Positions 4,351 through 63,600 of a stretch of DNA of 64,000 nucleotides are shown in pieces. The notes beneath the pieces were generated by a model, which was not told the DNA's origin, made no database searches, and worked only from the letters and a program-made list of their open reading frames with translations. The position numbers and the translations under genes are program-made. How positions within the stretch are numbered: position 1 is the stretch's first letter; each line of letters starts with the position of its first letter. Source of the stretch: Caenorhabditis remanei (taxonomy: Eukaryota; Nematoda; Chromadorea; Rhabditida; Rhabditidae); NCBI RefSeq assembly GCF_010183535.1, contig NC_071331.1:20274001-20338000 (forward strand). The letters are read 5' to 3'.

Positions 4351-4416
4351 CTGTTTCAAAAAACAGTAAAATGTATTTATCTTTATACATTTCGATAATA
4401 GTCCGAATTTACAAAT
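4351..4416 (+). ncRNA. Candidate 21U-RNA (type I piRNA) gene
   Basis: Core CTGTTTCA at 4351-4358. The YRNT box CGAT places the 5' U at 4396, 38 nt after the core. Confidence 0.65.
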
Positions 4417-4585
4417 CCAATAAACAGAAAAAAACGATTTTGAGTATTATCAGAATAGAATTCACTAATGAAGTTTCAGTAATATTAATTCTGTTCAAAT
4501 GTGGAAACTGTTATTCCGAAATGAGTATCCAACGTTCACGCAGGTCTCCTAAAGTTGTCGTTTTCAGGTGAAAATTCAAATTTTA

Positions 4586-4651
4586 CTGTTTCAAATATAT
4601 TGTTTTTGATATCGAAGGATATTTATTTGATCGGGAGATAATTATTCTAGT
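4586..4651 (+). ncRNA. Candidate 21U-RNA (type I piRNA) gene
   Basis: Core at 4586-4593 in a TTTTACTGTTTCAAA context. Box TGAT, 5' U at 4631, spacing 38 nt. Confidence 0.68.
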
Positions 4652-4863
4652 TTTCAAAATGAAAAAATAAGTATGAAAGAAGGCGATCGTTCTGTCATCA
4701 AGCAAAAAAATATTTGTTCGATTAAAATCCGAAATATTTTCTGTTTCTGAGAACAAATTTCTTATTTCAACTATGTTTTTGTGTAGTTTAGTTTTTAGGT
4801 AATATTTATGATAACAAATAATAATTGAAGCCACATCATCATTTGACTAAAACAACCTCTTTA

Positions 4864-4929
4864 CTGTTTCAAGCCTATTAAGTAATATGTGAAATTTTAA
4901 TTATATAATTTCATAGGAAGTCTATTTTT
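4864..4929 (+). ncRNA. Candidate 21U-RNA (type I piRNA) gene
   Basis: Core at 4864-4871, preceded by TTA. Box TAAT, 5' U at 4909, spacing 38 nt. Confidence 0.68.
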
Positions 4930-5854
4930 CATAATTTTGTTCAGCCAGTTATAACACTTGCAGAAATGAGATAAATCACTTTATAAGTTTCTTTTTATAA
5001 ATATTAGCTCGGCACAGTTTTTATCATTGCGTCTCTAATAATGAGAGGATTCAAGAGTAAATGTGACAGCAAAAAGTTTTCAGATCAACCGTTGATATCG
5101 AATTGTTGTAATTGATCAAAAGCCACACGTATATTTTCAGAACAGTAAACGGAATTCAAATATTTTTTTCTTGCGAAAGACTTTTTTCAAAATTCGATGA
5201 TAACAAAACTCATAGAATTTGAAAATATTCAGCATTCAGATTCTATAACTGATATTTATAGTTGAGCATAATTACACACAAAAACTGCACGACAAAGTTC
5301 CTTTTTTTGAGTCTCTACTCACTTTTTTTCTTGAGACAAGCGAAATTGTTCGGATTGAGATAGTATGTTTTCAGTAACTGTGGAAGGTGCCAAACGCTAC
5401 AATACGACGGTATTTTGTCTCGTCTTTTTCATAATATTTTGTATTGTTATTTGCATGAAATAGTAGTTGTTGATCAACAATTAAAGGTTCAAAAAGGTAA
5501 AAATAAAATGCAAATTACCAGCGGCGGAAAAGAATGAGTATTTTCTGTTTCACAATTTTTTGTTTCAACAGAAATTTAATTGATAAAGGAGATTTTTAAA
5601 AATACTTTTAATTGCATGAATGAAGTTGACAAAATAAAAATTAAGAAACGCCTGTATTAAATTCAAAAATGTACTTCTTCAACATTTGTTCGTTCATATT
5701 TTTTGAATGCACTTTTCATAACGTAGAAGAGAACTTACAACAGTTTTTCTTGTTTCAAAATAATCTTTTATTTCGGGTTCAGGATTTTCCTTCAATGCGT
5801 TCAGAAGTTTCAAAATGAACTAGCCTTAATCCTGATTTTTTGTCTGAAAAACTA

Positions 5855-5922
5855 CTGTTTCATGAAACCTCTATACTTCCAATGATCGAAATTATCTCTA
5901 GTAGGTTTCATCATCAAATCTC
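5855..5922 (+). ncRNA. Candidate 21U-RNA (type I piRNA) gene
   Basis: Core at 5855-5862. Box TAGT, 5' U at 5902, spacing 40 nt. A paralogue lies at 9581 in the duplicated block. Confidence 0.6.
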
Positions 5923-6039
5923 AAAAAAGACAAAGAAAGTACAATCATTGTGAAAATAAACAGCCTATAGTAGGTAGTGATTTTTCGTGTTGGAGACATT
6001 ATGAAAAAAATATATATTGTTTTTGTATTTAAAAATTGT

Positions 6040-6106
6040 CTGTTTCAACAAAAATTATTTTACTCCAAGAAACAATTTTGAACAATTTCATAAATGAACT
6101 GTTTCA
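6040..6106 (+). ncRNA. Candidate 21U-RNA (type I piRNA) gene
   Basis: Core at 6040-6047. Box CAAT, 5' U at 6086, spacing 39 nt. The predicted RNA overlaps the core of the next locus at 6099. Confidence 0.6.
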
Positions 6107-6165
6107 AACAAAAATATTCATGTAGAATACAAATTTTCTTTTAATAAATGTCTACTCCTGACTCT
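6099..6165 (+). ncRNA. Candidate 21U-RNA (type I piRNA) gene
   Basis: Core at 6099-6106. Box TAAT, 5' U at 6145, spacing 39 nt. Confidence 0.62.
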
Positions 6166-6273
6166 TATTTTTCCTGATTCAATTTCCACTATTTCAATAT
6201 AATTTTCACATGGGGGAAAATAATTGCCTTTTGATTAATTGAAAATGAATGTTCTGTTCGAACAAAACGTTTA

Positions 6274-6343
6274 CTGTTTCAAAAACATGTCAATCTACGC
6301 CCCCGACCTAATCTGAATTCGATTGAGACAATAAATAGAATTA
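6274..6343 (+). ncRNA. Candidate 21U-RNA (type I piRNA) gene
   Basis: Core at 6274-6281 in a TTTACTGTTTCAAAA context. Box CGAT, 5' U at 6323, spacing 42 nt, at the long end. Confidence 0.5.
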
Positions 6344-6802
6344 CTGTTTCCAGAAATTGATTTATTCTAAACACTCAATAAGACACCTGGTTTTACAGTT
6401 AAAGGCCGTGTTCGTGAACAGATAATAATGAAATCTGATTACAATTATTCCATATATTAAATGAAAAAAGGTTTCTCATCATGGTTTTAATATTTCATTC
6501 GGGAAACTGTGAGTTCATTGAACATTTTTTACACAAAAATTATTCAATTTAGAATACTTAAAATAGGTTTCTCATTATAGTTTTAATGTTTCATCCGGAA
6601 AATTGTGAGTTTACTTTTTATTTTCAACAAATTGGTTTAATTCTGAAATAGAATTTTTTACACTAACTGCGTTGACTCAACTTCTCAGTCTTCAATTTTA
6701 CTATTTCACAGAAACTATTTGTAACTAAAATTTTATAGATGTTTTCAATGTTATATGGTATCAAAGTTTCTATATAGTCATTATTTCATAACTCAAAGTT
6801 CA

Positions 6803-6867
6803 CTGTTTCAAAAAATTCTTTAGCTGTGAAAACAAATATTTTTCGCTTCTGCAATAATTTTTTTAAT
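6803..6867 (+). ncRNA. Candidate 21U-RNA (type I piRNA) gene
   Basis: Core at 6803-6810. Box CGCT, 5' U at 6847, spacing 37 nt. Confidence 0.58.
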
Positions 6868-7383
6868 AACTGTCGAACTTCATTAGTTTACAGAACAAAA
6901 ACACCTGGCTCATGATTTTTCATATTTCAAAATTTACTGTTTTCAGAAAAATTCTTATCTGGTAGTGAGGAGAGTTTATTAGTCGTTCGGTCACAACATA
7001 AAGCTAGAGAAACTCAGTTCCAAAAAAATGTTGTTTCTATGAAATTATATACTCATGATACCAAAACCACTCATTTTTTGCGATTTTTACCTTTGAAAAA
7101 TAAATATATTGCACACTCCGAAAAGAACTGCAAAAAACATGAAGATGATTTTTTCACGATCTATCTTATGGCCCAGAAAACTGGCATCTTGGTCAAAAAT
7201 TGACTTTTTGATACGAGGAACCGATTCCGTCGTCTGGAAACCTGAAAATTCTGCATTTTCAGTGCAAATAAAGAAAGAATTGAATTAAAATCTGAAAAAA
7301 TCGGCTTCAAGTTTCTTGCAGTCATTTTTCACTGTGTGGGAGACCGTGAATTGTGAATTACTCTTTTTCAATTTCAATATTCA

Positions 7384-7449
7384 CTGTTTCAACATACAGT
7401 TATCATTCAAAAACATGTCTATCTACAGTCGATGCCACAATTTCTACAA
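7384..7449 (+). ncRNA. Candidate 21U-RNA (type I piRNA) gene
   Basis: Core at 7384-7391. Box CAGT, 5' U at 7429, spacing 38 nt. Confidence 0.65.
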
Positions 7450-7616
7450 TACATTTTTAGAATTTTCTGTTACAAAGTATCTTAAGTACTGTCAATGAGT
7501 GGAACATTAAATGTTTTTGTATAAGGTTCGAAGAAAAAATAATTCCCCCTTGAAAATCGGCATTTGAAGAAAAATTGACCTCACTAATGACAATCAAAGC
7601 AAAGTTATGTCATTCT

Positions 7617-7682
7617 GGTTACTTTTTTGGCAGTGTAACATCATGAGATTAAATAATTTTAGATTGCAGGATTGTGAAACAG
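7617..7682 (-). ncRNA. Candidate 21U-RNA (type I piRNA) gene
   Basis: Core on the minus strand at 7675-7682. A YRNT box puts the 5' U at 7637, spacing 38 nt. Confidence 0.62.
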
Positions 7683-7926
7683 TGAGCATATTTTGATAAA
7701 TAAGGTACAAAGCGGTTTTCCAGATTAAAATGTAATCTGATATCAGAAGCCAACGATTTGACACTCCGCTTGACTAGAGACTACACAAAACACAAGGATG
7801 CGATTCTTATTGAGCAGTAAGTTCGCAATTTTTGCTGTTACAGGGGAAAAGAAAAAAAAATATGGTTTTAGGTTTTGTTTAGTTTTTGATAGGTTATTGA
7901 TATTTCATAATTATGGAATAATGTAA

Positions 7927-7994
7927 CTGTTTCAGAGAATATTAGTAAAATGGAAATTTTGAGTTTTGTTCGTTTTATATGAAACGACAATTGA
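7927..7994 (+). ncRNA. Candidate 21U-RNA (type I piRNA) gene
   Basis: Core at 7927-7934. Box CGTT, 5' U at 7974, spacing 40 nt. Confidence 0.6.
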
Positions 7995-8111
7995 GAGCCG
8001 GGAAACTCAAGTGCTTTTATTCATTTCGAATAATTTTGTATTTCAATCCACAAAAACAAAATTCTATGCACAAATATTTATTTAAAAATATTGAAAATCG
8101 ACATGGAAACT

Positions 8112-8459
8112 TTAGAAACTTTTGTTTAAGCTTTGCTCTTTTGATAATAGAATAGTTCCATGATTCAATGAATTCTCAGTTAGAAGGGTTGTTATTCTTG
8201 AAGAATTCCATCTGTTATCTAATTTGGGATCCAACATTTTATCGACGTCTCGATTAAATCCAGGTTGATGAAGAATGAGAGGAACGCAGAAAGCTGGAAC
8301 AGAAAATGTTGAAAATTTGAAATTGCACCTGAAACAAAAAACTAACCTTCCAGAAGAATTTCCTATCGAGAGAAGACGGCCATCCGGTAGAGAAGTTACG
8401 ATAAAAACTGAACTTCTCCTTCTCCTCTGTTTCTCGATGACTAGTTCCAACTCATCCAA
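8112..8459 (-). pseudogene. GPCR-tail-like segment, copy 2
   Basis: Antisense frame of 115 codons, closely similar to the one at 3876-4145 over its first 75 residues (for example SLPDGRLLSIGNSS and LILHQPGFNRDVDKM). It has a different, longer end. No upstream receptor exons are present. It is probably a relic of the GPCR 3' region that was duplicated with the block; conservation of the frame between copies may only reflect recent duplication. Confidence 0.4.
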
Positions 8460-8679
8460 CGTGGCAACATGTTTTTGAAATTAATAGGGGCAAGGTCAGG
8501 CTATAAAAAATTTAAATTTATTTTACTGAAAATACAGAAAATTTCACGGGAAAATTCACCATGATGGAATTGTTTTTTTTGTAACTAATATTTAAAAATT
8601 ATGTTTTTAGGCAGGATCTGAATAGTTTCTCATCAAAATGTGGTAGACGAGTCAGTAAGATCTGGGCCACAATTTTTTA

Positions 8680-8746
8680 CTGTTTCAAAATACAATGCAA
8701 TTTTCCGTTCTTTATGTATTTCTGATATGCATTGGAATTTATCGCG
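8680..8746 (+). ncRNA. Candidate 21U-RNA (type I piRNA) gene
   Basis: Core at 8680-8687 in a TTTTTACTGTTTCAAAA context. Box TGAT, 5' U at 8726, spacing 39 nt. Positional paralogue of the 4351 locus. Confidence 0.62.
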
Positions 8747-9319
8747 CATATAAACTGAAAATGGAATTTGTAAGTATTATCAGAATATCATTCACTGAAA
8801 ATGTTTCAAATATAGAAACTGTTATTTCGAAACGGGGTTGTTATGGGAATCAAGTGATATTTATTTGATTTCATTGTCTTTTGAGTGAGGAAAGAAGCCG
8901 ATCGTTCTATCAATGAGCAAAAATAAGAAATTCCGAAAAATTCTCTGTTTCTGAGAAGATACCTCTTGTTTAACTATGTTTTTATTTAGTTTAGTTTTCA
9001 TATAATATTTATCATACTAAAAGATTTTTGAAGCCGCCATCATTTTACTAACTACTCACCGTGAAGTATGAGAAAATAACTATCGAAGGCCACGTGGATA
9101 TTTTCAGAACAGTAAAGGGAATTCAAGTACATTTTTTCTTGCAATTTTTTTCTGTTTGGAAATTCAATGATAGCGAAACTTGTGGGAGGTGCCTAATTCC
9201 ATTTTCAACTTGTTTGGAATTCTATTTTGCTTAAAATAGTAGCTTTTGATCGTTTTCCTTCAAAAAGACAGCAATTTGTGATTAAAAGCATCAGACTATG
9301 TTCACTGTTACAAAATTTA

Positions 9320-9387
9320 CTGTTTCAACAAAAATTTAATTGGAGAGAGAAGTTTTTTTGAAGTACTTGCACGCATACATTGAATCT
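9320..9387 (+). ncRNA. Candidate 21U-RNA (type I piRNA) gene
   Basis: Core at 9320-9327. Box TACT, 5' U at 9367, spacing 40 nt. Confidence 0.6.
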
Positions 9388-9580
9388 AAAAATGTACTTT
9401 TTCAATACATTTTTTTGTTCAAATTTTTAAATGCACTGTTCAGAACCTATTGGAAAACTTACGACAGTTTTTCTTGTTTCAAAATAATTATATACCCAGA
9501 ATTCAGAAATTTCCTTAAATAACTTTAAAAGGTTAAAAATAAATTAGCTTGAATCTTAATTTTTTTTGTCTGAAAAACTA

Positions 9581-9647
9581 CTGTTTCATGAAATACATTT
9601 ATTTTGAACATTTACGATTTCTATAGTCAGCAAAGAGTAAATTAATA
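9581..9647 (+). ncRNA. Candidate 21U-RNA (type I piRNA) gene
   Basis: Core at 9581-9588. Box TAGT, 5' U at 9627, spacing 39 nt. Paralogue of 5855. Confidence 0.6.
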
Positions 9648-9753
9648 TTTCATAGTAAATATTGAAAACATTATGAGATTAAAGAAAACACTCTTTTTGA
9701 ATATAATAATGTTCTATTTCAACAAAAAAATGTTTTACAAGAGAAACAATTCA

Positions 9754-9821
9754 CTGTTTCAATATAATTTTACATTGGGGGGAAAACACTTGACTTTTGA
9801 TTAGTTTAACCGAGACTGCAA
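9754..9821 (+). ncRNA. Candidate 21U-RNA (type I piRNA) gene
   Basis: Core at 9754-9761. Box TGAT, 5' U at 9801, spacing 40 nt. Confidence 0.6.
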
Positions 9822-10329
9822 ATAAAACAATGCGTGTTTGACCTAGAACGGTCTAAACGTGTCATTTTTCTGAAAAATGAAAAACGTGTTTTCCGTTTTC
9901 TGAGAAAACTAAACATTTGGGTGAAACGAAAGTGTGTTCATTGAATTCTACGTACTCGACTACAAAGGGTTAAAAAGTGTTCATTCTGTTTTAGCGTTCT
10001 GGGCTCTCAGGGCAGACCGTCAAACATTTCGATAATCTCAAAATGACGTCCCAATTGGGGGAGTTTAAAGACGATTCGAAACTGAATCAAGCCCATTGGA
10101 GATCAAGATATCTCGTAATCGTAGAATATTGTAACCGTTTCAGAAAATATTAGTAAAATGGACACATCTTGGTTGGAACTTTCACACGGGACATTAGCAG
10201 ACTGATAATTTACAAGCATCCTTCAGTTGAAACAACAAAACCGGGAAACTCAAGTGTTTCTATTCATTTTGAATAATTATTTCTTCACAAAATTGCTGAA
10301 AATTCAATATTTTCAATTTAAAATTTTTC

Positions 10330-10394
10330 CTGTTTCAAGAAAATGAAGCATATTTTTGAGATTGAGTCGGTGATATTTCCATATGGAATACCTT
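10330..10394 (+). ncRNA. Candidate 21U-RNA (type I piRNA) gene
   Basis: Core at 10330-10337. Box TGAT, 5' U at 10374, spacing 37 nt. Confidence 0.58.
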
Positions 10395-10646
10395 TGAGTG
10401 CTTACTATTAGCATAGCAAAAAATAAGATGTAAACAAAAATCGTTTGCAAAACTCCTTTCAGTTTCTTAAAATTTTGAAAACGTTAATTTTATTGAGAAA
10501 TCCGTAAAAATGTATCAATGTGTTTCATGTCAACCACAGGGCGTACAAAACATAATGATGCGTTTAAAAGAGCAAATGAGTAACCAAGTTTTGAAACTGA
10601 AACTTTTAATTGATGGGTATCTCTCGCGCTCTATTCTCTAGTATTC

Positions 10647-10714
10647 TTTAGTATTATTCGCTTTGCATCACTCTTGATAATCTGGGAACTAGATTTCATA
10701 TTTCCTTGAAACAG
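10647..10714 (-). ncRNA. Candidate 21U-RNA (type I piRNA) gene
   Basis: Core on the minus strand at 10707-10714; 5' U at 10667, spacing 40 nt. Related loci at 23,267, 48,107 and 55,203 share the flanks. Confidence 0.58.
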
Positions 10715-11329
10715 AACTTTCAAAATTTTCCATGTTTCTTTACTTTAAGATTAATTTTTTAAAGCGTTTGTATAATGTCTAAACTCTCCAAAAATCTACT
10801 TTTTCAAATAAACTAATTCGGTCTCAATTTATTTTTTATTGTTCCAAAATGATTATTTACTGTGAATGAAAATAATTGTGTACTGTTTCGAGATTTCTAG
10901 TTTTTAAAAAAATAAACGCGGGTTTGTTTAATTTCGCAATGATGTTTTTTTCGGAAATGAGAGTTCACAGAAAATGAACTAAAAAATGAAAGCAAATATT
11001 TAAAAATCGGTTCAATATCTCCCTCCATGACTATTCCGATTGTGATGTTTCTCGTATTGTAAACTCCCGTTGTTTCCTAATTTCTGATTATCATAAAAAA
11101 TCACACTTGTCTATTTCAAATGTGACACCTTTTGATTGTTTCGAGAACAGTTCATTGTCACTGTACTCCTACAGTAGTTTCGGTGACCGTCTACAAAATA
11201 CGAAAGCCTTAGCTACCAGTAACTAGGTCCGTCCCATTTGAAATAGTAGTCGAACCACTTGAAATAGTAGTCGAAAACAGACACTCCACCGTAAATCAAT
11301 CAGGCTCACTTGTCTGAAACACACATAAA

Positions 11330-19992: not shown

Positions 19993-20276
19993 GGGTGTAA
20001 GTGGGAAGTGTTTCTTTGATTTAACGTTGAGAGCAGGCTTATACGGAGAATACTATTCTTTTGAGAAATCGGAATCGAAATGAACTGAGCAACTACAAAC
20101 TACAAAATCTTATGAACCGAGTATTCTACGCTCTAATTATCAATGAACAGAGTGTGTTCACTGTTTCGAAATTTACTGTTTCAACAAAAACTTAATCAGG
20201 TTTTTAAAATGATTGCATAGATATGAGTTGAAGAAACAAAACTTAAAAAAGTGCCTGTATTGAATTCAAAAATGTA

Positions 20277-20495
20277 TACTTGTCAAGGTCAGGCCCCGCC
20301 CAACAAGGCCTTCTGAAAATATTTCGAAGGCCCGGCTTCAAAAAATAAACCAATTTTTTCAATTTTTCATCGAAACTGTGAAAATGTCTGATGATTTTTC
20401 AGAATTTTTTCTAATTCTGAATGCAAAAATTTGAAAAAATTTGAAAAAATTTGAAATTTGAACTTTGGCGCCAAACACCCGGGCCTTGACAAGTA
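20277..20495. mobile_element. MITE-like element with TACTTGTCAAGG ends, unit 1
   Basis: About 219 bp bounded by TACTTGTCAAGG and its reverse complement CCTTGACAAGTA. It has GC-rich subterminal words (GGCCCCGCCC, CACCCGGG) and an AT-rich middle. A copy sits at the same place in unit 2, so insertion predates the duplication. Confidence 0.7.
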
Positions 20496-20621
20496 TGAAT
20501 CAACCCTAATTCATAATTCCAACTCTTCACTTCACGATTTCAAACTATTCACTTTTTCTTCGAAACAGTGAAAAATATATTATAACGAGAGATTACATAG
20601 AAAAAGAGGGAGACAGATAGG

Positions 20622-47578: not shown

Positions 47579-47647
47579 CTGTTTCATTACATGAACGTTT
47601 TTACAAAATTCACTGTTCTAAAATGTTCATTTTTATAACTTCCTGTT
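47579..47647 (+). ncRNA. Candidate 21U-RNA (type I piRNA) gene
   Basis: Core at 47579-47586. Box TGTT, 5' U at 47627, spacing 41 nt. Confidence 0.53.
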
Positions 47648-48046
47648 CCGTTACAAATTCTTCAATTAATAAAAAATCGACACTGTCTGTATGTTTTTTA
47701 CAGTTTCTAATAAATAATATAATGCTTTCAAATCAGACAGGAGTATTTCACAATTTGTAACGACTTTTCCTTTCCCAATATTTGGCTAATTGATCCAAAA
47801 GGATCATTCAATAATAGCGTATATTTACAGTTTCAGAAATCTATACAATCTTAAATGAATGAACTATTTATTTGGTAAAGGACAATCCTCTTATACGACA
47901 ACCGGTAAAGGATAGAATCAACATGATGAGGGATATATTTACTTAGTAATCGCTGGAGTTTAAAGTAAGAAATTTAAACAAATCCAATGCTGTTATCATG
48001 AGTTTGAAATATAAATAAGGCATCCAAATTATGTGACTGTAATTTT

Positions 48047-48114
48047 GAATTCTAGAACAATACCATATCATTTTTAATAATCTGATAACTAAATTTCATA
48101 TTTATTTGAAACAG
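48047..48114 (-). ncRNA. Candidate 21U-RNA (type I piRNA) gene
   Basis: Core on the minus strand at 48107-48114; 5' U at 48067, spacing 40 nt. Family of 10,707, 23,267 and 55,203. Confidence 0.58.
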
Positions 48115-48292
48115 AATTTTTCATTCTAAAATGTTCAAATTTTCCTGTTTCAAGGATATTGAAAAACTTTAAAACAATGTCTAAAGTCTCCAAAAACCTA
48201 CCATTTCAAAAATTTAATTTCTTGTCTCAATTTATTTTTCATCAGTCCAAAACGACCGTTGACTGTTAACAAAATCCAAAAATAATTATGTA

Positions 48293-48359
48293 CTGTTTCA
48301 AGATTTGTAGTTTTTCAAAATAACGGGATTTCGGTTAATCTTGCGTTCAAAGCTGGGAT
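48293..48359 (+). ncRNA. Candidate 21U-RNA (type I piRNA) gene
   Basis: Core at 48293-48300. Box TAAT, 5' U at 48339, spacing 39 nt. Paralogue of 55,371; related sites at 10,883 and 23,419 read CTGTTTCG. Confidence 0.6.
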
Positions 48360-48516
48360 TCTACAATCGCTTCAAAACAACACAAATTTTGTTTGATCTA
48401 TCATTTCGAAAAGTAGAAACTTGTTTTTACGGTTTCAGATCATTCTTAATATTTCGTTAAATTAAGTTAATGGGTATATCATTCGTCAATCCCAATGCCT
48501 TCTGTCAAAATTTGTT

Positions 48517-48582
48517 CTGTTTCAGAAAATATTATTTAAATTTATAGTTAGGTGTTATTAATCCAAAATTTCCATCTTTTCT
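48517..48582 (+). ncRNA. Candidate 21U-RNA gene, member of a four-copy family
   Basis: Core at 48517-48524. Box TAAT, 5' U at 48562, spacing 38 nt. Paralogue of 38,149, 43,793 and 55,593. Confidence 0.68.
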
Positions 48583-48736
48583 TTCTGGGATTTATTATTA
48601 TTATTTTTACTGATTCTGATTATATTGGTTTAAATTTTTTAAAAATTCTAGCATGTTTAACTTTGTATTTGTAAGAGAAATCCTACTTCAATGTCCATCT
48701 CACAACCGTCGCAGTAAGTTTAAGTCTGAAATTTCT

Positions 48737-48803
48737 CTGTTTCAGACATTTTCTAACATTTTACTGATACATGTCTTTCTAATCCAAAGTGGGAAGCTAC
48801 TGA
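48737..48803 (+). ncRNA. Candidate 21U-RNA (type I piRNA) gene
   Basis: Core at 48737-48744. Box TAAT, 5' U at 48783, spacing 39 nt. Confidence 0.6.
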
Positions 48804-49045
48804 GAAATCAATTGAAAAAATCTTTGAGTGTAATTATAGTTTCGTTGTTTGACATTTTTTAGTATTCAAAAACCGATTTGTGTTACCTTAATGAAAATCT
48901 GAATAAATCAATTGAATTAAAGAATCGAGTAGAACTTGAAAATTGTACTTTCATTATATTTCTACGGAAACAGAATATTTCATGAAAAGTCATTTCAATT
49001 TTCTCAATACAGTTTCCTAACTTGTTTGTGATTTCAGAAAATTTA

Positions 49046-49111
49046 CTGTTTCAACTGGACTTCAAAAACACATATTAACTCAATAAATGTTTTCCTTTAA
49101 CTAATTTGTCT
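49046..49111 (+). ncRNA. Candidate 21U-RNA (type I piRNA) gene
   Basis: Core at 49046-49053 in an ATTTACTGTTTCAAC context. Box TGTT, 5' U at 49091, spacing 38 nt. Confidence 0.65.
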
Positions 49112-53501: not shown

Positions 53502-53568
53502 CTGTTTCAAATAAATCGAAATTCCAAACAAGCATTAAGACTATTAGTTTGTCTCAATAATTCCACGT
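53502..53568 (+). ncRNA. Candidate 21U-RNA (type I piRNA) gene
   Basis: Core at 53502-53509. Box TAGT, 5' U at 53548, spacing 39 nt. Paralogous promoter at 43,063 lacks a well-spaced box. Confidence 0.58.
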
Positions 53569-53886
53569 ATTTCAAGATTCACTGTTCTAATTGTAAACGT
53601 TTCACTTCTAGTCTTTAACTTCCTGTTGCGTTACAAATTCTTCTACTATACCAATTTTTCCCTTTTCAAATATGTGGTTAACCGTTCCAAAATGATCATT
53701 CAATCAATAAGAGCTTATATTTAACGTTTCAGTTATTTGAATATTTTTATATCAGAACGTTTTTGTATTTTTTTTGTAAAAAATCAGATAATTTACTGAT
53801 TCAAATGATATTGAATGTCTACTGGAAATAATTAGACACACTAAGTAGCATGTAACCATGCTATCCTTATTTCTAGATAAATATTA

Positions 53887-53954
53887 CTGTTTCAGAACTT
53901 TCTTATAGCTTCTACGAATTTCTAAAAGTTCGATGTGAGTTTTGATGCCTCCAA
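53887..53954 (+). ncRNA. Candidate 21U-RNA (type I piRNA) gene
   Basis: Core at 53887-53894. Box CGAT, 5' U at 53934, spacing 40 nt. Confidence 0.6.
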
Positions 53955-54134
53955 TTTCCTATAACAATTACTTTACTCACCTCAAATTAGCCGATTGATA
54001 CAGTACTGCAATATCCATGACAATAGTTAAAAGAAATGGAAACGCGTAGGTGATGAATGCCTCTCCGATTGCGAGGATACGGTAGCCGAAGTCACTGAAA
54101 TAAACGGAACTTGTGATGCGATAGATGTTTTTCA

Positions 54135-54199
54135 CTGTTTCAGGATATTTTGAGTTGTGCTGACATGTTTTCATTTAATTGATGAAGACTTATTGTTTC
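54135..54199 (+). ncRNA. Candidate 21U-RNA (type I piRNA) gene
   Basis: Core at 54135-54142. Box TAAT, 5' U at 54179 (37 nt), or TGAT at 54183 (41 nt). Confidence 0.53.
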
Positions 54200-54491
54200 A
54201 AATTAGTTTATTCAGAATGATATTTTGCATAGTTTTGCACTTCAGAAATATTCTGCTTTGAAACTAGTAAATTGTATTTTCAACTTGTTGAAACCCCACA
54301 AAATGCACACTAAATGTTCACTTCTCGCCGAAAAGAAGTTTCGTATGATCACAGATTATTCTACTGATAATTTTCTGTTAATTGATGCGAAATACCAATT
54401 GAACAAAAAACTATCGTGTAAATTGAAATATTCAAATGTGAATGTTAAATTCAATTCTTACAACGAAATTATTCAAAATGAAATTTTCTCA

Positions 54492-54556
54492 CTGTTTCAG
54501 TTCTTAGCCAAATAATTTATGTTTTGCAGTTTTAGTGATTTTTCATTGACTCTCTC
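54492..54556 (+). ncRNA. Candidate 21U-RNA (type I piRNA) gene
   Basis: Core at 54492-54499. Box TAGT, 5' U at 54536 (37 nt); TGAT at 54539 (40 nt) is equally possible. Confidence 0.55.
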
Positions 54557-55143
54557 ATCATTTAATTTTCTTTAATTTTCCTATTTAAAACATTTTGAAA
54601 TAATGATTCAAGCAGAGGTATGTCTTATTCAACTATTTCTAGTTAAATACGTAAATGTACTATAATAGAAACAATTTTCTCCAAAAGCTTACCTCATAAT
54701 ATCAACATCCCTTTCACAGACACCAATCAGTTGATCATCGTCAGTTAACATTGTGACTTCTTCGATGAGTATCAATGACCAACTTTGCAAGAATCACTTC
54801 GCCGCACTGTTTTGTATGTTTTTTTTTACTTTTGATCAATGTTTGATTGAAGTTTCAGAATCACTTTGTAACGATTTTTCCGTTTCAAATGTGTGATTAC
54901 TCGTTCCGATATGATCATCCATTCAATTATGTTTACAGTTTCAAAAATCTACCTAACCTTGAACGAATTTATTATTTGTCCTGCAAAGTGGAAGCCTCTT
55001 ATACGACAGCCTAAAAATAATTAACAGAGAAACATGATGGGGGAGATAAAATCAATTAGTAATTACACGAGCTTGAAATGTGAAGTTTAGGTAAATCCAG
55101 TGTTGTAAATCATGAAAAAGAAAAAGGAAACGGGTATCCAAAT

Positions 55144-55210
55144 TTTGAATCTGTATTTTTTTAATTGTGGAGTTATACACAGGACAGGATTTCTCATTTC
55201 TTTGAAACAG
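55144..55210 (-). ncRNA. Candidate 21U-RNA (type I piRNA) gene
   Basis: Core on the minus strand at 55203-55210; 5' U at 55164, spacing 39 nt. Confidence 0.6.
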
Positions 55211-55241
55211 TGCTTTTTATTCAAAAAATTTTCAAATTTTT

Positions 55242-55308
55242 CTGTTTCAAAAAGATGATATTGAGAAAACGTTTGAACATTGTCTAATCTGTTCAAGAAC
55301 ATAACGTT
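55242..55308 (+). ncRNA. Candidate 21U-RNA (type I piRNA) gene
   Basis: Core at 55242-55249. Box TAAT, 5' U at 55288, spacing 39 nt. Divergent from the 55,203 promoter. Confidence 0.6.
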
Positions 55309-55370
55309 TCTAATCGGAATTGTTTCAAACGGTCATTTCACTAATTGTAAAACCCGAAAATATTTGTGTA

Positions 55371-55438
55371 CTGTTTCAAGATTTGTAGTTTTTGAAAATA
55401 AACGGGGTTTTGTTTAATTTTTGATCGATTTGATGATT
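55371..55438 (+). ncRNA. Candidate 21U-RNA (type I piRNA) gene
   Basis: Core at 55371-55378. Box TAAT, 5' U at 55418, spacing 40 nt. Paralogue of 48,293. Confidence 0.6.
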
Positions 55439-55592
55439 TTACAATCAGTCGTTTCAACACAATAATCGTGTTCTTTTATCTTTAATTTCGAAAAATAACA
55501 TCTTTGTTTTAACTGCTTCAGAGCGTTCTTAATAAAATCATATTATTGGGTATGTCATTCATCGATCCAATCAGTATTTTACAAAATTTGTT

Positions 55593-55658
55593 CTGTTTCA
55601 GAAAAAGTCATTCAACTTTCTAGTTAGCTGTTATTGATCCAAAGTGTCCATCCACACT
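55593..55658 (+). ncRNA. Candidate 21U-RNA gene, member of a four-copy family
   Basis: Core at 55593-55600. Box TGAT, 5' U at 55638, spacing 38 nt. Paralogue of 38,149, 43,793 and 48,517. Confidence 0.68.
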
Positions 55659-55959
55659 TTCTGTTAATTTTTTCTATTTTTGCTGATTCTGATCACATTG
55701 GTTAAAATTAAAAAATCTTGTTGCATGTTCAAAAAAATTCATTCTTCAAAGTTCTTCTCACGACCGTCGAAGAAATTTTGAGTCTAAACATTTACTGTTT
55801 CAGACATATTCTAACAGTTTAATGATAAAAGTGTTGTATCCATATTTTTTTGAAAATTGTATTTCTATTATTACACTTTTGAAACAGAACATTTCATAAA
55901 AGGTCATCTCACTTTTCTGAATACAGTTCTATAGATTGTATGGGATTTCAGATCATTTA

Positions 55960-56027
55960 CTGTTTCAACTGGATTTCAAAATAATTTCCGAAATTGGATG
56001 AAATGTTTCAATCATGGAATTGATTAG
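55960..56027 (+). ncRNA. Candidate 21U-RNA (type I piRNA) gene
   Basis: Core at 55960-55967. Box TGTT, 5' U at 56007, spacing 40 nt. Paralogue of 49,046. Confidence 0.6.
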
Positions 56028-56182
56028 TTTCATTAACAAACTTATCTTTGTATTAAGTTTTAATATATAGAGTTCGACTGAGTTCTCGATGAAAAAGTGA
56101 AACATTTTTGTAGATTTAATAAGTTTTGTTACTGTAGACAGTTGTTATTCTATTATTTTTAGCACTGATTACTCCATTCCTG

Positions 56183-56249
56183 TGAAAAAGATGATCATAT
56201 CCAACAAAATTCTGGAAAATCTGTCGACGAAATCAACTTTTTGAAACAG
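56183..56249 (-). ncRNA. Candidate 21U-RNA (type I piRNA) gene
   Basis: Core on the minus strand at 56242-56249; 5' U at 56203, spacing 39 nt. Confidence 0.58.
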
Positions 56250-56497
56250 CAAAAAACTTTTATTCAAGTTAAAAAAATACTACAAACTGATTTGTTCTCT
56301 GGTTCCCAACGCTCAAATGAAACAAATAGTCGTGATTCAATTAATTTATTAAATCCATAAAACAATGGAATACATCTCATATGAATAGTACAAATAATAC
56401 AAGTCAGAGTTGTTTTGAATCGGTAATCTATACCGAAAATCAATAAAAATAATAAAAAGAGAAAAAAACGAAATATTAATATAGACTAGCTTTTTCA

Positions 56498-56706
56498 CTA
56501 CACAATGGGGTCATGTAGATCCAATTCTTCAGTGATTTTCAGACTTTTTCGGGAGAGAATTTGGAGAAGCAGACGTTGGAAACGATGGATTATCCTCTCG
56601 TTGCTCGCTGTGAACTTTTTCAATCCGAGTTCCACGTCATCTGATTTGAGATCATTCATTTTTGGTGACTTTTAGATTAAAGTTGATAGACAATGGAGGG
56701 AGAGAT
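56498..56706 (-). pseudogene. Terminal-exon-like segment downstream of GPCR C, frame-shifted
   Basis: Corresponds to the open terminal exons of copies A and B (213 nt each) but is 209 nt. It has lost 5 nt (near 56,680) and gained 1 nt, so entry from the CTGTTCCAG acceptor meets a stop. From an internal ATG the remaining frame (MNDLKSDDVELGLKKF...LDLHDPIV) is still open. It probably no longer contributes to the receptor, whose exon 6 has its own stop. Confidence 0.5.
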
Positions 56707-57365
56707 CTGGAACAGTAAGAATTTGTAAATTGGTAGATATGAAACAGAAAACTAACCTTCCAGAAGAACTTTCTAGAGGAGGGAGCAGAGGAGAATTCAG
56801 TGAAGAAGTTTGGATGAGAACTGAAGATTTTCTTTTTGTTTTGTTTCGGGAAGAATAGTTCCAAATCATCCAACGTGGCAACACGTCATTCCAATGAATA
56901 AGAAGTATACGGTAGGGCGAGGTCACGGTGTTTCTTTTTCCGAATTGTATAATTATCCCGTCAAAATTGAATAATTGATTGTGTAATGAAAGACTGCGAG
57001 ACGTTTCGAAACCAGACACTTCGGAACCAGACGTGTTGAAGCCGTTAAATAGGTTACTGAAAAGGATAAATTTAAGCGATTTACAGAGCAGAATTGCTTT
57101 ATCGAAATGTCAGTCGTCTCGGTTTCAAAATGCCCGATTTCGAAACGTCCAGAGCCAAATAAATCTATTGGGAAAGGTTTTGAGATTACCTAATATGAAT
57201 GATTTATTGCAGGAAAACCGTGAATTCTAGTTTGTGTTTTCTTGATTTGCAACAAAAACAATTTTTCGGTTTCAAGAAGAGAACAGTTGCATATACATCT
57301 CAATGACTCAATTTCATAATAAACAATCAGTTTCAAAATTGAATTGACAGAACATTCCTTTTTAG

Positions 57366-57432
57366 TAATTTGATAGAAACATGTGATTGTATTTCGGGTA
57401 TTCCAAAATCACAAATAAATATTTTGAAACAG
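57366..57432 (-). ncRNA. Candidate 21U-RNA (type I piRNA) gene
   Basis: Core on the minus strand at 57425-57432; 5' U at 57386, spacing 39 nt. Confidence 0.58.
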
Positions 57433-57463
57433 GATTTATTTTCAAAATTCTTACTAGAAGCTA

Positions 57464-57531
57464 CTGTTTCATACGATTCAATTAAAAGGTTCGGGTTTTA
57501 TAAAAATTAATTAGACTCTTGAATTTGGAAA
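57464..57531 (+). ncRNA. Candidate 21U-RNA (type I piRNA) gene
   Basis: Core at 57464-57471. Box TAAT, 5' U at 57511, spacing 40 nt. Divergent from 57,425. Confidence 0.58.
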
Positions 57532-57640
57532 ACATGTTATTTCTACAAATCACCACCAAGACCATTACCAACAAACTTGATTCTTATATAACAATTTTTC
57601 CTTGGAACAGGAAAAATGAAAAATTTTTGAACAAAAAAAT

Positions 57641-57705
57641 CTGTTTCAGGGGAATTGTGAATACTATTCAATGGATTTGTCTAATGATTTTCATCGGAAA
57701 CATTT
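57641..57705 (+). ncRNA. Candidate 21U-RNA (type I piRNA) gene
   Basis: Core at 57641-57648. Box TAAT, 5' U at 57685 (37 nt), or TGAT at 57688 (40 nt). Confidence 0.53.
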
Positions 57706-57846
57706 CGATTCACAAAAGCTCTTTACTTCTAAAAAACTGGATTTTCGGTCACAAAATTTATCACAGAAACTATATCATAACGAATAATAAATTAATAGAG
57801 ATGAGATCACAGCAAGAATACATGAAAATAGTAAGAAATCGATAGA

Positions 57847-60483
57847 TTAAACTATTGTATATTCACTCCGAAGACTTGATGTACAGCTCACTGGCATTTT
57901 TGGAGGTTGTCTGCAAAAAATTTATATTTGAAAGTTTACAGTTTCACCGGAATATTTTCTAGATTTTGAAATTTTTACGTCGGTCTATACAATGACAGAG
58001 ATTGCATAAAAACCTCACTCACCGACAACTTTTACCGCGTGGTGAGACCAGAAGATTAGTGTAAAAGTAGATCATAGAGAATTGAGTCAAATAAATAAAG
58101 TATAAGAAGGCATCGAGATACAAATAGACATGTGTAGACGTTCTCAAACTGAATATCTCATCACACAACTGTAATGTGTAGTATGGAGCATTGAGGGACA
58201 CTTGAATAGTCGCCATCATCAAACATCGCCTCATTGCTTGATGTCTCCGTCGATTCGATTGTTTTATCGATTGAGATGACTGGATTTTGACGGTTTCATT
58301 CACTTGGAGCAGGACACTGTGTTCCGTTCGAATGTTTTCAGCCGACATTACCACGAAACTGAAATTAACTTCTGATTCATCATGAGAATATTGAGTAGCT
58401 GCTGTGAGCCTTGAAAAGGAACTTTGGAAACGGGAGAAAATTGTTTCAAAGCGTAAAGCATTGAAGACTATTTTTCCATTCATAAGCTAAAGAGTGATTG
58501 AATTTTTAATTTTTATAAAAATTTCTATATTTCATTGAAACAGTAAATTGTTTCAATTAAGCTTATAATAACCAGTGGTTGGCTGCCATGATTAAAATTG
58601 ATAAGTTTATCACTAAAAACTGATTATAGTTCTGTTAGAACCCTTTTCAGATGACAAAATCCAGTTTCAAGAATCTACTATAATAATTTAATTACACTGT
58701 GCAATTTGAAATTTTCATATTCTAGATAATTCTTACAGTTTCAGAATTTTCTTATAGATTCTACAAACTTCTAAAAGTTCAATAGAAGTCTTGCAGTTAC
58801 TCCGATTTCTTATAACAATTACTGTACTCACCTCGAATTAGCCGATTGATACAGTACTGCAATATCCATGACAATAGTTAGAAGAAATGGGAATGCGTAG
58901 GTGATGAATGCTTCTCCGATTGCAAGGATACGGTAGCCGAAGTCACTGAAATAACTGTGTTTTTATTTCGTTTGACAGTTTTCTCACTGTTCCAAGATTT
59001 CCTAATTATCAAATTGTTTTGATAAGTTATGATCTAGTTGGAAGTACGATTTTGTTTGAAAATAGTTAATTCAAAATGATGTTTTACACTCCAGAAATAT
59101 TCTGTTTCATAAATAGAAGATAGTTGTTTCAATTTGTTGTGAATTTGTTTGTAAGAGAAATTTAATCAAAGTTTCGAACCCTCTTTGCAACACTTTTTCT
59201 TTTTCCAATATTTGATTAATCGTTTTAAAATGGTTTTAAAATGGCAATCAATTAGAGCACCCATATAATAATGTTTTAAAGAAAATTAATTTTAATAAAA
59301 TTTTGAAAAACCCCCATTGTTCTATTTGTTTTTTTTTTCACTGTTTCAATAACTATTGTTCTCGAATCGGTCAGAAGCAATGAGCATATGTACTTCAAAA
59401 ACCTATTTCCAACAAATGACAAAAAAAACAGTTCTACATGGGATGTTATAGAGATCTTTCAGAAAATTCCTGTTTCAAAAAACTCAATTAGTTACAAAAA
59501 TGTAATTTCCATTGTTTCCGGAAATAAAAATTTTCAATTAAATTCAGTTCTTAGCCTAATTATGTTTTTTATTAATTGTTCATTAGTTTTTCTCCTATAT
59601 ATGTAACTCTGATCGGACAAATAACTTAATTTAGTAACAAAGACACTTTACCATTGTTAAATTTTTAATACATTTTCTGTTTCAAAAATTCTGAATTAAT
59701 GATCCAAGCAGAGTATTTTAATGAGCCAAGCAATAATTCGACATCTTATTTTAACAATTTTAGGTACCTACGTATATTTATTAGACACAATTTTCTCCAA
59801 AAGCTTACCTCATAATATCAACATCCCGTTCACAAACACCAATCAGTTGATCATCGTCAGTTAACATTGTGACTTCTTCAATGAATATCAATGACCAACT
59901 CTGCAAGAATATCTTTGTACTCTTCTTCTTTTTATCCCATCTTCATCCTCTTCATACCTGCGTCAGAAGTGCAAAACAAGCGGTCGCAAGAATCAGTTTC
60001 TTCCCAGACCTCATAAATCCAAAGAATCCATGAGAAGACCGTTTCATCGGGTAAAAAAGAATGAAAAATCTCTGAGAGAAGAGACATAACCAGATCCAAT
60101 TTATGAAACACGCGGCGCTGTTCGAGAAGAAAAGTTCCAGTTTGCAGACGAGCGTTCCTGGAAAAAAATATAAGATTGAAAACTACTTTAGCTGTTTTTA
60201 AATTTATGAAAATTTGAAACGGGAGCTTTAATTTTAATACTTCTTGCTTTGACTCACCTTTAAACGAAAAGTTAAAAATATCGAATAGAATAATGAGAAG
60301 AGTGATAACATTAGCAGCAATGATACTTATCAAGAATACGAAATAATTGGATCTCTTCCTCTTAATCAAATTGAAAAATGCTTTGGCGACTAGAAGTAAA
60401 GAGATCAAGACGGTGCAGAGGATGATCCAGAATTGACATTTCGATATGAACATCCATAGTTTCATGTGCTCCGAACCATTCAT
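57847..60483 (-). CDS. Rhodopsin-like G-protein-coupled receptor, copy C (343 aa), apparently intact
   Basis: Six exons in consistent phase: 60258-60483, 59958-60157, 59809-59900, 58832-58945, 58023-58358, 57847-57910, ending in TAA. The ATG lies 4 nt after a TTTCCAG acceptor, fitting trans-splicing. Seven membrane segments can be placed: TM1 FWIILCTVLISLLLVAKAFF, TM2 FVFLISIIAANVITLLIILF, and TM3 LELFFSNSAACFINWIWLCL followed by FSQRFFILFYP in place of DRY. TM4 is in exons 2-3, TM5 YAFPFLLTIVMDIAVLY, TM6 MMATIQVSLNAPYYTLQLCD (NAPYY for the CWxP region) and TM7 YLTQFSMIYFYTNLL. The style recalls nematode neuropeptide-type receptors such as the AEX-2-related group, but I cannot assign the subfamily or ligand. 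Introns 3 and 4 hold piRNA promoters. An alternative donor in exon 6 (CCA/GTGAGC) could lead to the terminal-exon-like segment at 56,498. Confidence 0.85.
58477..58543 (-). ncRNA. Candidate intronic 21U-RNA gene
   Basis: Core on the minus strand at 58536-58543, in intron 4 of the GPCR and in the same orientation; 5' U at 58497, spacing 39 nt. Paralogue of 42,044. Confidence 0.58.
59470..59536 (+). ncRNA. Candidate intronic 21U-RNA gene
   Basis: Core at 59470-59477 in GPCR intron 3, antisense to the host. Box TGTT, 5' U at 59516, spacing 39 nt. Confidence 0.58.
59687..59754 (+). ncRNA. Candidate intronic 21U-RNA gene
   Basis: Core at 59687-59694 in GPCR intron 3, antisense to the host. Box CAAT, 5' U at 59734, spacing 40 nt. 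Confidence 0.58.
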
Positions 60484-60531
60484 TTTCCTGGAAATTTGAA
60501 ATTATCAACAAAGTGAGAATATTTTAAAGAA

Positions 60532-60599
60532 CAACACGAGTAGAAAACGGAATCACCAATTTCAAAATGAGGGCGGGGTATCTGGACCTTTTGAAACAG
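60532..60599 (-). ncRNA. Candidate 21U-RNA (type I piRNA) gene
   Basis: Core on the minus strand at 60592-60599, about 110 bp upstream of the GPCR start codon; 5' U at 60552, spacing 40 nt. Confidence 0.58.
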
Positions 60600-61013
60600 T
60601 ATTTAATTTTTTCAGGGGTTGCAGTTCATAAGATTCAAATTATCGCGTTTATTTGAAAAACTGTTTACCTAGAATTCATCGTTTGAAGATCACTATATAA
60701 TTCATTTCAAGTTTCGATTCATTGGGAATTTCAAAATATAGACTCGTTGAAACTGTATATTTGTTCTTGAAGGTTACTGTTTCAAGCGACTGATTACTAT
60801 AATCAAATGTGGTTGCCAATGGACATTCACTTCACAAAAAAGTTATTTCACAAAAAGCAATAGTTATTCACAAAACTGGAATTCCTATTGTTTCTGGAAA
60901 TTAAAATGCTCTTGAATGAATGTTGAATTGAATTCTATAATAAAGTTAGTTCCGATTTATTGGGAATTTCAAAATATGGACTCGTTGAAACTGTAAATTT
61001 TTCATGAAGGTTA

Positions 61014-61079
61014 CTGTTTCAAGCGACTGACTACTGTAATCAAATGTGGTTGCTATAGTTCGAGTAATCTCACTTCCTT
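61014..61079 (+). ncRNA. Candidate 21U-RNA (type I piRNA) gene
   Basis: Core at 61014-61021. Box TAGT, 5' U at 61059, spacing 38 nt. The promoter is duplicated at 60,777, where the box spacing is 36. Confidence 0.62.
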
Positions 61080-61205
61080 CATATTCTGATAATTTTAGAG
61101 GTGGTAAACATGTGTTATTGAGTACAAGAAGTGCAGAAATTAAAAAACCATATGCTACTATTCGCAAATCGGGAATTGGTGTATCTAGAGTTTTTGAAAC
61201 GGAAT

Positions 61206-61650
61206 TTAATTTTTGGCTCCGCGGCAATTCGCAACTGCGACATTCCGCAACTGCGACATTTCGCAACTCACGTAGGTTTCGCAACTGCGACACTTCGCAA
61301 CTGCGACATTTCGCAGCTAGCCATTTCGCAACTACGACATTCCGCAACTACGACATTTCGCAACCACGACGTTTCGCAACCACACCGCATTTGCATATTT
61401 AGGTCAGTTGAAAATGTTGAAACCGAAGGGTCTGGGAACATATTTGAAAACATTAAATAGGAGAAAAAGTTATCTGACCCATTTTTAGACAAAACTAGGT
61501 AAAAATATTGCTAGTTCTATGGTTGCGAAACGTCGTAGTTGCGGAATGTCGCAGTTGCGAAACGAACAGTTGCGAAATGTCGCAGTTGCGGAATGTCGCA
61601 GTTGCGGAATGTCGCAGTTGCGAATTGTCGCGGAGCCTAATTTTTAGGGG
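61206..61650. mobile_element. Foldback element made of inverted CGCAACTGCGACATTT minisatellites
   Basis: The left half (61,215-61,390) is about ten copies of a 15-16 bp unit CGCAACTGCGACATTT with variants (ACTACGAC). The right half (61,515-61,637) is its reverse complement. The ends GGCTCCGCGGCAATTCGC and GCGAATTGTCGCGGAGCC mirror each other. No coding frame; the ORFs across it are repeat artefacts. Confidence 0.8.
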
Positions 61651-62000
61651 GGAGCAGTTCATAAGCTTAAAATAATTAAGATTATTTAAAAAACTTTTAG
61701 TTTGAAATTTATCACATGAAGAACACCGATAAATCAAATATAGCTCCGATTTATTGGAATTATTACAATTTCGACTCTTTGAAACAGTAAATTTGTCTTT
61801 GAAGATTATTGTTTTATCGAACTGTTGATTGTAATCAAATATGGTTTCTATAGTTCATGCGTTGTTTTTGGAGCCCTCATTCATATTATTCTGGATGTAA
61901 AAAATGACTGAATTAACTTTCCGTTGGTTTATTGCTTTTGAGCTGAATATGTTGTCTGAACCACATTATTGGAAAATTTAAATAAGGTTCTGAGCAGCTT

Positions 62001-62367
62001 ACTAGGGAAGGCCCTCGACTCGGTCTGGAGTTATGGGTCGTGACCCATATCTTTGAAAGCTGAGAAAACGCCGATTCCAAATATATATTCATTTTTTGCC
62101 CTCGAGGCCTGGAATTCGAGAAAAACAAGATCAAAGTTTGTAAAAATGACAAATTATTGCCTTTCTGACACGCGAAAAACGTTTTTAAATTTTTTTGCGA
62201 TAAAAAGGCAATAATTTGTTAGTTGTCCAAACTTTGACCTCATTTTTCTCAAAAACCAGGCCTCGAGGGCAAACTGAATATATAATTGGAATCAGCGTTT
62301 TTTCAGCTTTTCAATGATATAGGTCTCGATCCATAACTCCAGACCGAGTCCATGACCTTCCCTTGTT
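62001..62367. mobile_element. Long foldback element, arms about 160 bp
   Basis: The left end ACTAGGGAAGGCCCTCGACT and the right end GAGTCCATGACCTTCCCTTG are inverted, as are GGTCTGGAGTTAT/ATAACTCCAGACC, TTTGCCCTCGAGGCCTGG/CCAGGCCTCGAGGGCAAA and AATTATTGCCTTT/AAAGGCAATAATT. The central loop is about 30 bp. Likely a nonautonomous DNA element or a hairpin source of siRNA. Confidence 0.82.
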
Positions 62368-62463
62368 AGAAATGAAAAATTTTTTGAAGCAGCAATTTTT
62401 ATGTCAAAAAATAGAAGGACGCTTAGAAAAATGATACATATATGTGGCCTATGATAGCTAATT

Positions 62464-62530
62464 TCAAAAAAACGAGAATTAAAATTACATTGTCCAGTTA
62501 ACAACACGTTTTGAAATTTTCTTGAAACAG
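62464..62530 (-). ncRNA. Candidate 21U-RNA (type I piRNA) gene
   Basis: Core on the minus strand at 62523-62530; 5' U at 62484, spacing 39 nt. Confidence 0.58.
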
Positions 62531-62962
62531 AGAGTTTTTTTGAAAATTTGCTATTGGAAATATATATTTTCGCAGGGTAATTTGATAACATGGAGATCTA
62601 GATTAGCGTTGCTTATTCAATTCTGAGAAATTAGAAATTGATAAATGAAAGCAAAGAACGGATAGATCCTGAAGAACTACTTTATACAAAACTTAATTTC
62701 AGAAGTTTCTCATCTGAAACCGCAAATTTTTGAAAATTCTGTAAATTAAGCAAGTTTCAAAGAAATCTAATAAAAAACATTGGAATAGAATGTTAAAATA
62801 AAAAACGTTCTGTAGCAGGCACATCTTAAATAAAATCATCCAAAATCTCATAATTTGAATTTATTTTAAAACAGAAATTTGTTTTCCTAAAAAATGAAAG
62901 AGTTTGATTTTAAAGTGAATAGAATACATTAGCATTAAAATGCTATGAATAAAAATATAGCG

Positions 62963-63029
62963 AACGAGTGATTCGACATTTGAACAAGATTCTCAATTTT
63001 TGATTAGACATATTCATTTTTTGAAACAG
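62963..63029 (-). ncRNA. Candidate 21U-RNA (type I piRNA) gene
   Basis: Core on the minus strand at 63022-63029; 5' U at 62983, spacing 39 nt. Confidence 0.58.
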
Positions 63030-63600
63030 CAACAAAAAATCTCTCATCCCTTTCTGTTCCCATCCAAAATGAGCAAGAGACATATGAATGATTCAGAAGA
63101 ACGCGACTAGGACTACTCTCTCTCTCCTCTCTGATCCCCCCTCCTTTCCCCAACGGATTACATCAAATCCCCTCGTTTCCCAACAAGCCCCGCCTCCTTT
63201 TAGGCGGGCTCAAAGAGCAATTCCCCTTTTTTGTGCGCTCATTTGAATAGAGATGGGATATGTTTGATGAATGGAATTGAAAAAAACGGGAAAAAATGTA
63301 ATGGAAAAAATGATGATGAGGGGTTGTTGCAGATAGAAAATTGAGGGAAAAGAAGTCAAATAATTGGGAAAAGAGAGAGAAGAAGTGCAAAGAAGGGATC
63401 ATTAGAAAAGGACGAAACCTTTGAAGAAAAGGATTCAGAGCTCTGAAAAAAAACATGTGATTTTTAAAGATGAGGGGTTTCTAGAAAAAGCAGATTTGAC
63501 TGAAATAACTTTTTCACTGTTTCAAACATTCATGTTTCATTATTTGAATTTTGGAACAGAAGTTTTGGATGGTAAGGGCAGAAGGAAATGAAATTTCGTG
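63030..63600. other. Gene-free, purine-skewed stretch
   Basis: A pyrimidine-rich then strongly purine-rich stretch (63,290-63,450, GGGAAAAG-type). One exact core at 63,517-63,524 has no YRNT box at the expected spacing. No gene supported. Confidence 0.45.

Follow-up and report, generated by a model that had tools for sequence, protein, structure and literature searches.

Why is a single octamer, CTGTTTCA, so abundant in a 64-kb stretch of Caenorhabditis remanei PX506 (20.274-20.338 Mb of chromosome IV, contig C4; hereafter the window, meaning the whole stretch analysed), and what kind of gene does it mark? The features described below indicate that the window is almost certainly part of a cluster of type I PIWI-interacting RNA (piRNA) genes, or 21U-RNA genes, on the right arm of that chromosome, an assignment made from sequence. 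Type I 21U-RNAs are 21-nt, 5'-U RNAs bound by PRG-1, with capped precursors of 25-29 nt that begin 2 nt upstream, and their genes depend on PRDE-1/USTC. The right arm of chromosome IV begins at about 17.1 Mb in Table 1 of PMC10461856, the part of that paper used here, so that the window sits within the arm.

Exact CTGTTTCA cores numbered 88 in the window (56 on the plus and 32 on the minus strand), versus an expectation of 4.67 (standard deviation 2.45, maximum 12) in 100 dinucleotide shuffles of the window. A sequence-only reading of the same DNA had placed the first and last cores correctly at 4351 and 63524; its count of 86 octamers (55 + 31) was short by two and its expectation of 2-3 somewhat low, although the strong excess that it claimed held. 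The wider context which it gave, TTTACTGTTTCAAAA, is near the column consensus but is no constant 15-mer, being exact in the window only three times (at 6270, 8676, and 42826). Over the 130,466,896 bases of the genome scanned for pattern counts, TTTACTGTTTCAAAA occurred 122 + 133 times, versus 2 + 6 times for the reversed pattern. The matrix scan proposed by that reading was carried out with a 32-column matrix derived from cluster DNA and a site threshold of >=12 bits; 264 kb of cluster DNA yielded 880 sites versus 38 in one third-order Markov resample. In the window, 158 sites passed (97 plus, 61 minus), while 4 of the 88 exact cores scored below 12 bits. Apart from two isolated sites, all of them (156/158) fell into four blocks, delimited by their first and last cores, at 2733..10883 (37 sites), 20161..23419 (14 sites), 36170..49046 (63 sites), and 53502..63856 (42 sites), respectively, the second block being in part a diverged copy of the third.

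The surroundings of the cores were organized as well. A-rich and then T-rich columns preceded the core and A-rich and then T-rich columns followed it, from about -10 to +21 (553 of 574 exact cores, those <=150 bp from a piece end being dropped). Further downstream, clear enrichment of the motif YRNT was limited to three distances of its T from the core start: 45 nt (2.3 times the baseline), 46 nt (3.9 times), and 47 nt (2.8 times). Of the 875 usable matrix sites in the 264 kb, the rest of the 880 lying too near an end, 69.3% had YRNT at +45 to +47, versus 23-25% at five control offsets; in the window it was present at 62 of the 88 exact cores, and at 60 of the 84 that passed the matrix, versus 12-29 at eight control offsets. 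A step in G+C content followed the predicted start, from a mean of about 0.335 in positions 1-20 of the predicted 21U down to about 0.275 in positions 22-37, as seen in 608 sites with a single predicted start, aligned on the predicted T, among the 877 of 880 sites kept. This step, judged by G+C alone, resembles the high-then-low melting signature that is tied to pausing of RNA polymerase II (Pol II) in the accessible text of PMC6436959. Type II piRNA genes are defined by the lack of the Ruby motif, and the present sites, which are defined by that motif, do not belong to that class. The window gave no matches in an Rfam scan at gathering scores or in a tRNA scan.

Cores were also dense in the parts of chromosome IV that were examined as cluster DNA. 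Exact cores numbered 5-42 per stretch in twenty 10-kb pieces of C4 (from within 19.44-19.65, 20.26-20.38, and 23.13-23.17 Mb), versus 5 exact cores in 40 kb elsewhere (20 stretches of 2 kb, 15 on other chromosomes and 5 on C4). The cluster stretches were chosen because they had motif matches or adjoined the window and are therefore no random sample of the chromosome. Among the matches listed, 100 of the 255 TTTACTGTTTCAAAA places, all were on C4, and the contig order of the match lists would mean that C1-C3 have none. Between two dense stretches, C4 20.37-23.10 Mb had no exact TTTACTGTTTCAAAA among the matches listed.

Core, A/T-rich flanks, YRNT spacing, G+C step, and density on chromosome IV together support the type I 21U-RNA cluster that the sequence-only reading had proposed. 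Several points weigh against it. YRNT was absent from +45 to +47 at 26 of the 88 exact cores, some of which may be defunct or start elsewhere; chance alone would put YRNT there in about a quarter of sites. There are also G+C dips at positions 11-13 and 18, within the 21U; the 264 kb scored with the matrix had served to train it; and the cores are not all independent, because the blocks are duplicated. This duplication also bears on whether the cores are simply part of a dispersed repeat or satellite in which CTGTTTCA occurs by chance and has no promoter role, since duplicated blocks contain some of the cores and copies of a CTGTTTCA-bearing repeat lie elsewhere (C2 at about 1.141-1.150 Mb, C79, and C4 at 23.714 Mb). 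Such an origin is extremely improbable: the 880 sites represent 646 alignment families with no common sequence outside the motif and start, YRNT and the G+C step stand at a fixed distance, and the core diverges less than the flanks between copies, albeit in pairs picked for the motif in one copy. The repeat itself, which on C79 lies at 16.6-22.2 kb, is rich in CTGTTTCA in different orientations, and stretches of it are identical across the three contigs. In a type I piRNA cluster, each core would serve as promoter to its own tiny Pol II gene of about 70 bp, at which Pol II would pause and terminate shortly after the 21 nt, and the capped precursor would be trimmed to a 21U-RNA bound by PRG-1; expression of the individual loci in the window is predicted on the same grounds.

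How are these small genes arranged relative to one another? Among the 880 matrix sites, same-strand neighbours were rare under about 65 bp and common beyond, a limit consistent with a unit made up of motif, spacer, and 21U, and units seldom overlapped. Divergent, that is, head-to-head, pairs behaved differently. With each alignment-family pair counted once and the expectation drawn from distances of 101-1000 bp, there were 56 divergent pairs at 17-55 bp versus 23.7 expected (Poisson P 1.3e-8, for a range picked after the distances were seen), whereas convergent pairs (7 versus 24.8) and same-strand pairs (16 versus 76.7) were depleted. With exact cores alone, the pairs at 17-45 bp numbered 36 in the divergent, 5 in the convergent, and 3 in the same-strand orientation. 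Genome-wide, exact divergent pairs numbered at least 232 at gaps of 20-45 and at least 99 at 200-225, and exact convergent pairs at least 28 and at least 115, respectively; the reversed-pattern controls for these four counts, which are lower bounds with repeats not collapsed and include repeated families from the C4 left arm, were 3, 1, 1, and 8. Two pairs of same-strand matrix sites in the window lie just 15 bp apart, at 20161/20176 and 36170/36185; five such 15-bp pairs occur in the 264 kb, with no other same-strand pair below 19 bp.

Predicted starts were found on both arms in 30 of 69 head-to-head pairs, on one arm in 31, and on neither in 8, whereas eight control offsets gave 0-7 pairs with both. 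A possible origin of the pairs is inverted duplication of one gene, with no common promoter platform involved, and four pairs of the window (38-39 bp) are indeed mutual copies, which means that block duplication spreads pairs. Nevertheless, this origin is very unlikely and was rejected on the arm comparison: the downstream arms of 70 pairs were no more alike than shuffled ones (mean local score 7.80 versus 7.98; 1/70 pairs above the 99th percentile), and the pair spacing varies from 17 to 55 bp. As the arms have no common sequence beyond the motif, each pair therefore joins two distinct piRNA genes at a single upstream stretch, which its two units would use as one common platform.

Eight head-to-head pairs of the window pass the matrix, and four of the exact pairs are copies of one duplicated family. 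The pair at 55203..55249, with core starts 39 bp apart, has a predicted YRNT start at +46 on both arms; by position arithmetic, the plus core at 55242 is predicted to give a 21U-RNA at 55288..55308 (+) and the minus core at 55203-55210 one at 55144..55164 (-). A 39-bp pair at 57425..57471 also has predicted starts on both arms (+46 and +47). Those at 45566..45611 and 48107..48152, both of 38 bp, have a predicted start on the minus arm only, and that at 44065..44106 (34 bp) on the plus arm only, while in the exact 39-bp pair at 45973..46019 the plus core at 46012 scores below 12 bits. A special role for a fixed spacing of 38-39 bp was considered and dropped: the spread is 17-55 bp over 264 kb, and four of the window pairs at 38-39 bp are one family.

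Since parts of the cluster blocks are diverged copies of one another, it could be asked which portions of the genes change. Alignments shorter than 150 bp or with >=97% identity were dropped, and sites had to lie inside the alignment from -20 to +94; this left 181 site pairs, or 138 families once those with too few positions had been removed. Divergence was 0.093 in the core, 0.151 in the flanks, and 0.220 in the 21U body (+47 to +66). The low core value is partly a matter of choice, because a pair entered the set only if one or both copies had the motif, a choice that did not extend to body and flanks. The body/flank ratio was 1.46 (95% 1.29-1.65, family bootstrap; 1.28-1.67 in another run), with positions inside the motif or body of other sites masked; these positions were left unmasked in the tests by base composition, motif loss, motif strength, nearest duplicates, family, and sub-position given below. 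Exact-octamer sites gave 1.49 (1.29-1.73; 112 pairs), and pairs entirely within the window gave 1.33 (1.12-1.55; 56 pairs, 43 families). As controls, the reversed matrix gave 1.01 (0.89-1.18), one column-permuted matrix 1.08 (0.91-1.28), and random positions in the same alignments a mean of 1.005 (standard deviation 0.052), with 0 of 300 reaching 1.46. Base composition was discarded as the cause, the adjusted ratio still being 1.40 (1.22-1.59).

The excess varied with the state of the gene. It was 1.64 (1.36-1.97, aligned on the predicted T) with a predicted start in both copies, 1.29 (1.00-1.65) with one, and 1.27 (1.05-1.52) with neither; 1.64 (1.33-2.07) with two strong motifs and 1.30 (1.03-1.61) with weaker ones; and 1.16 (0.91-1.46; 32 pairs) where the partner scored 6-12 bits and 1.49 (1.21-1.78; 28 pairs) where the motif of the partner was lost (<6 bits). 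The excess is an average: taken singly, 63 of 99 families with two motifs and 34 of 46 with one lost had a body less diverged than its flanks. For the nearest duplicates (88-97% identity, 20 pairs) the ratio was 1.42, and its range spans 1 (0.85-2.43). By sub-position, YRNT was not raised (0.91, 0.72-1.12), the seed reached 1.30 versus 1.53 at positions 9-14, and the ratio past the 21U was 1.20 (0.98-1.45) at positions 22-28 (+67-73) and 1.21 (1.04-1.39) at +74-83. Transitions were scarcer in the body (197/467) than in the flanks (649/1321; p 0.011, uncorrected). In 64 matched alignments of 229, divergence was 0.095 at positions far from any site, 0.136 in flanks, and 0.203 in bodies.

Three explanations of this pattern, which leave the assignment of the locus unaffected, were rated close together, none of them above tentative. 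Diversifying selection on the piRNA repertoire, by which new guide sequences are favoured and the bodies of duplicates change fast, is a tentative candidate. In its favour speak the peak at 21U positions 2-21, the neighbouring YRNT that is not raised, and the smaller ratio at positions 22-28, as does the larger excess both with a start kept in both copies (1.64 versus 1.27 in neither) and in strong-motif pairs (1.64 versus 1.30). The dependence on motif strength would equally be expected if germline transcription, with Pol II pausing or terminating within the 21U body, made that body a mutation hotspot. This somewhat doubtful alternative also agrees with the weak extension past the 21U, up to +83, and with the lower share of transitions. 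It would not predict a drop at the mature 3' end, though the drop is not sharp; YRNT lies within the transcript and yet is not raised, but is itself under constraint; and the excess is no weaker in pairs with one lost motif.

That last result also fits selection poorly, since the 28 motif-lost pairs have the same excess (1.49) while the 32 pairs at 6-12 bits have only 1.16. Start-less pairs still show 1.27, the body is under the flanks in 63 of 99 both-motif families, and positions 9-14 changed more than the seed. Moreover, the accessible text of PMC9683057 describes 21U sequences as diverging fast between C. briggsae and C. elegans and judges them to be under little selective pressure. Because some results fit selection poorly, mutation and constrained flanks were retained beside it as readings. 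In the last of these, as doubtful as the mutation hotspot, the rate in the body is the neutral one, and weak constraint from A/T phasing, nucleosome, or promoter signals slows the flanks. The A/T-rich columns from about -10 to +21 are in keeping with it, as are the A/T-rich motifs beside the Ruby motif of C. briggsae clusters in the portion of PMC9683057 available; however, positions far from any site diverge less than the flanks (0.095 versus 0.136), with the proviso that the far class may contain coding DNA. Whatever drives the excess, the clusters appear to grow by block duplication, and local duplication of blocks would precede rapid change of the guide sequences. A more speculative proposal, regarded as improbable on balance, is an immune-type diversity generator, in which blocks of autonomous piRNA genes, many of them head-to-head on a common promoter platform, are duplicated locally and selection then keeps promoter and start while driving the guide beyond the neutral rate.

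The window has other features besides the piRNA genes. An open frame of 329 aa at 51349-52338 (-), in a motif-free gap of the cluster, carries a tyrosine-recombinase domain (Pfam PF00589, E 4.4e-12) and probably belongs to a mobile element. A 5.5-kb segment with long open frames is duplicated at 90% identity (14022-19403 and 29846-35263), each copy starting with a 296-307-bp tandem repeat; none of its scanned open frames was above the Pfam cut-off, and one sub-threshold EGF-like match was seen in the second copy. Two facing arrays, at 61228-61380 and 61522-61631, are composed of a 16-bp unit, TTCGCAACTACGACAT, and its near reverse complement.

Clusters of this kind are known and expected in Caenorhabditis. 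In the accessible portions of PMC6317315, PMC4015492, PMC4050365, and PMC6436959, the type I clusters of C. elegans have in common with the present one the CTGTTTCA core, the A/T-rich spacer, YRNT with T as the 5' U, individual small genes, and Mb-scale clustering on chromosome IV; in C. remanei the T lies in a narrow range, 45-47 nt after the core start. The available text of PMC9683057 describes C. briggsae clusters likewise, with the Ruby motif, YR upstream of T, location on chromosome IV, and retained promoters next to diverging 21U sequences. That comparison is between species, whereas the present result concerns duplicates within one genome, with the body above the flanking rate. Selection on the Ruby motif was found in PMC6436959, and the origin of new piRNA genes was raised as a question in PMC9683057, as far as their accessible parts go. 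Type II piRNAs of C. elegans, according to the part of PMC7917558 available, have bidirectional small-RNA starts similar to the pairs seen here but are motif-independent and without the Ruby motif, whereas the C. remanei pairs have a Ruby core on each arm. Neither head-to-head, divergent, or bidirectional pairing of type I genes nor faster divergence of the 21U body, with selection or rates there, was found in the literature searched, whose coverage leaves out most subscription papers and includes others in part.

What deserves to be followed at this locus is the excess of head-to-head pairs, together with the faster divergence of the guides between duplicates. Local duplicates measure the evolution of piRNA guides without cross-species alignment, and promoters that are kept while guides change beyond the flanking rate bear on guide selection and on the origin of new piRNA genes. 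The head-to-head pairs, in turn, suggest that the upstream complex is shared by both arms or used bidirectionally.

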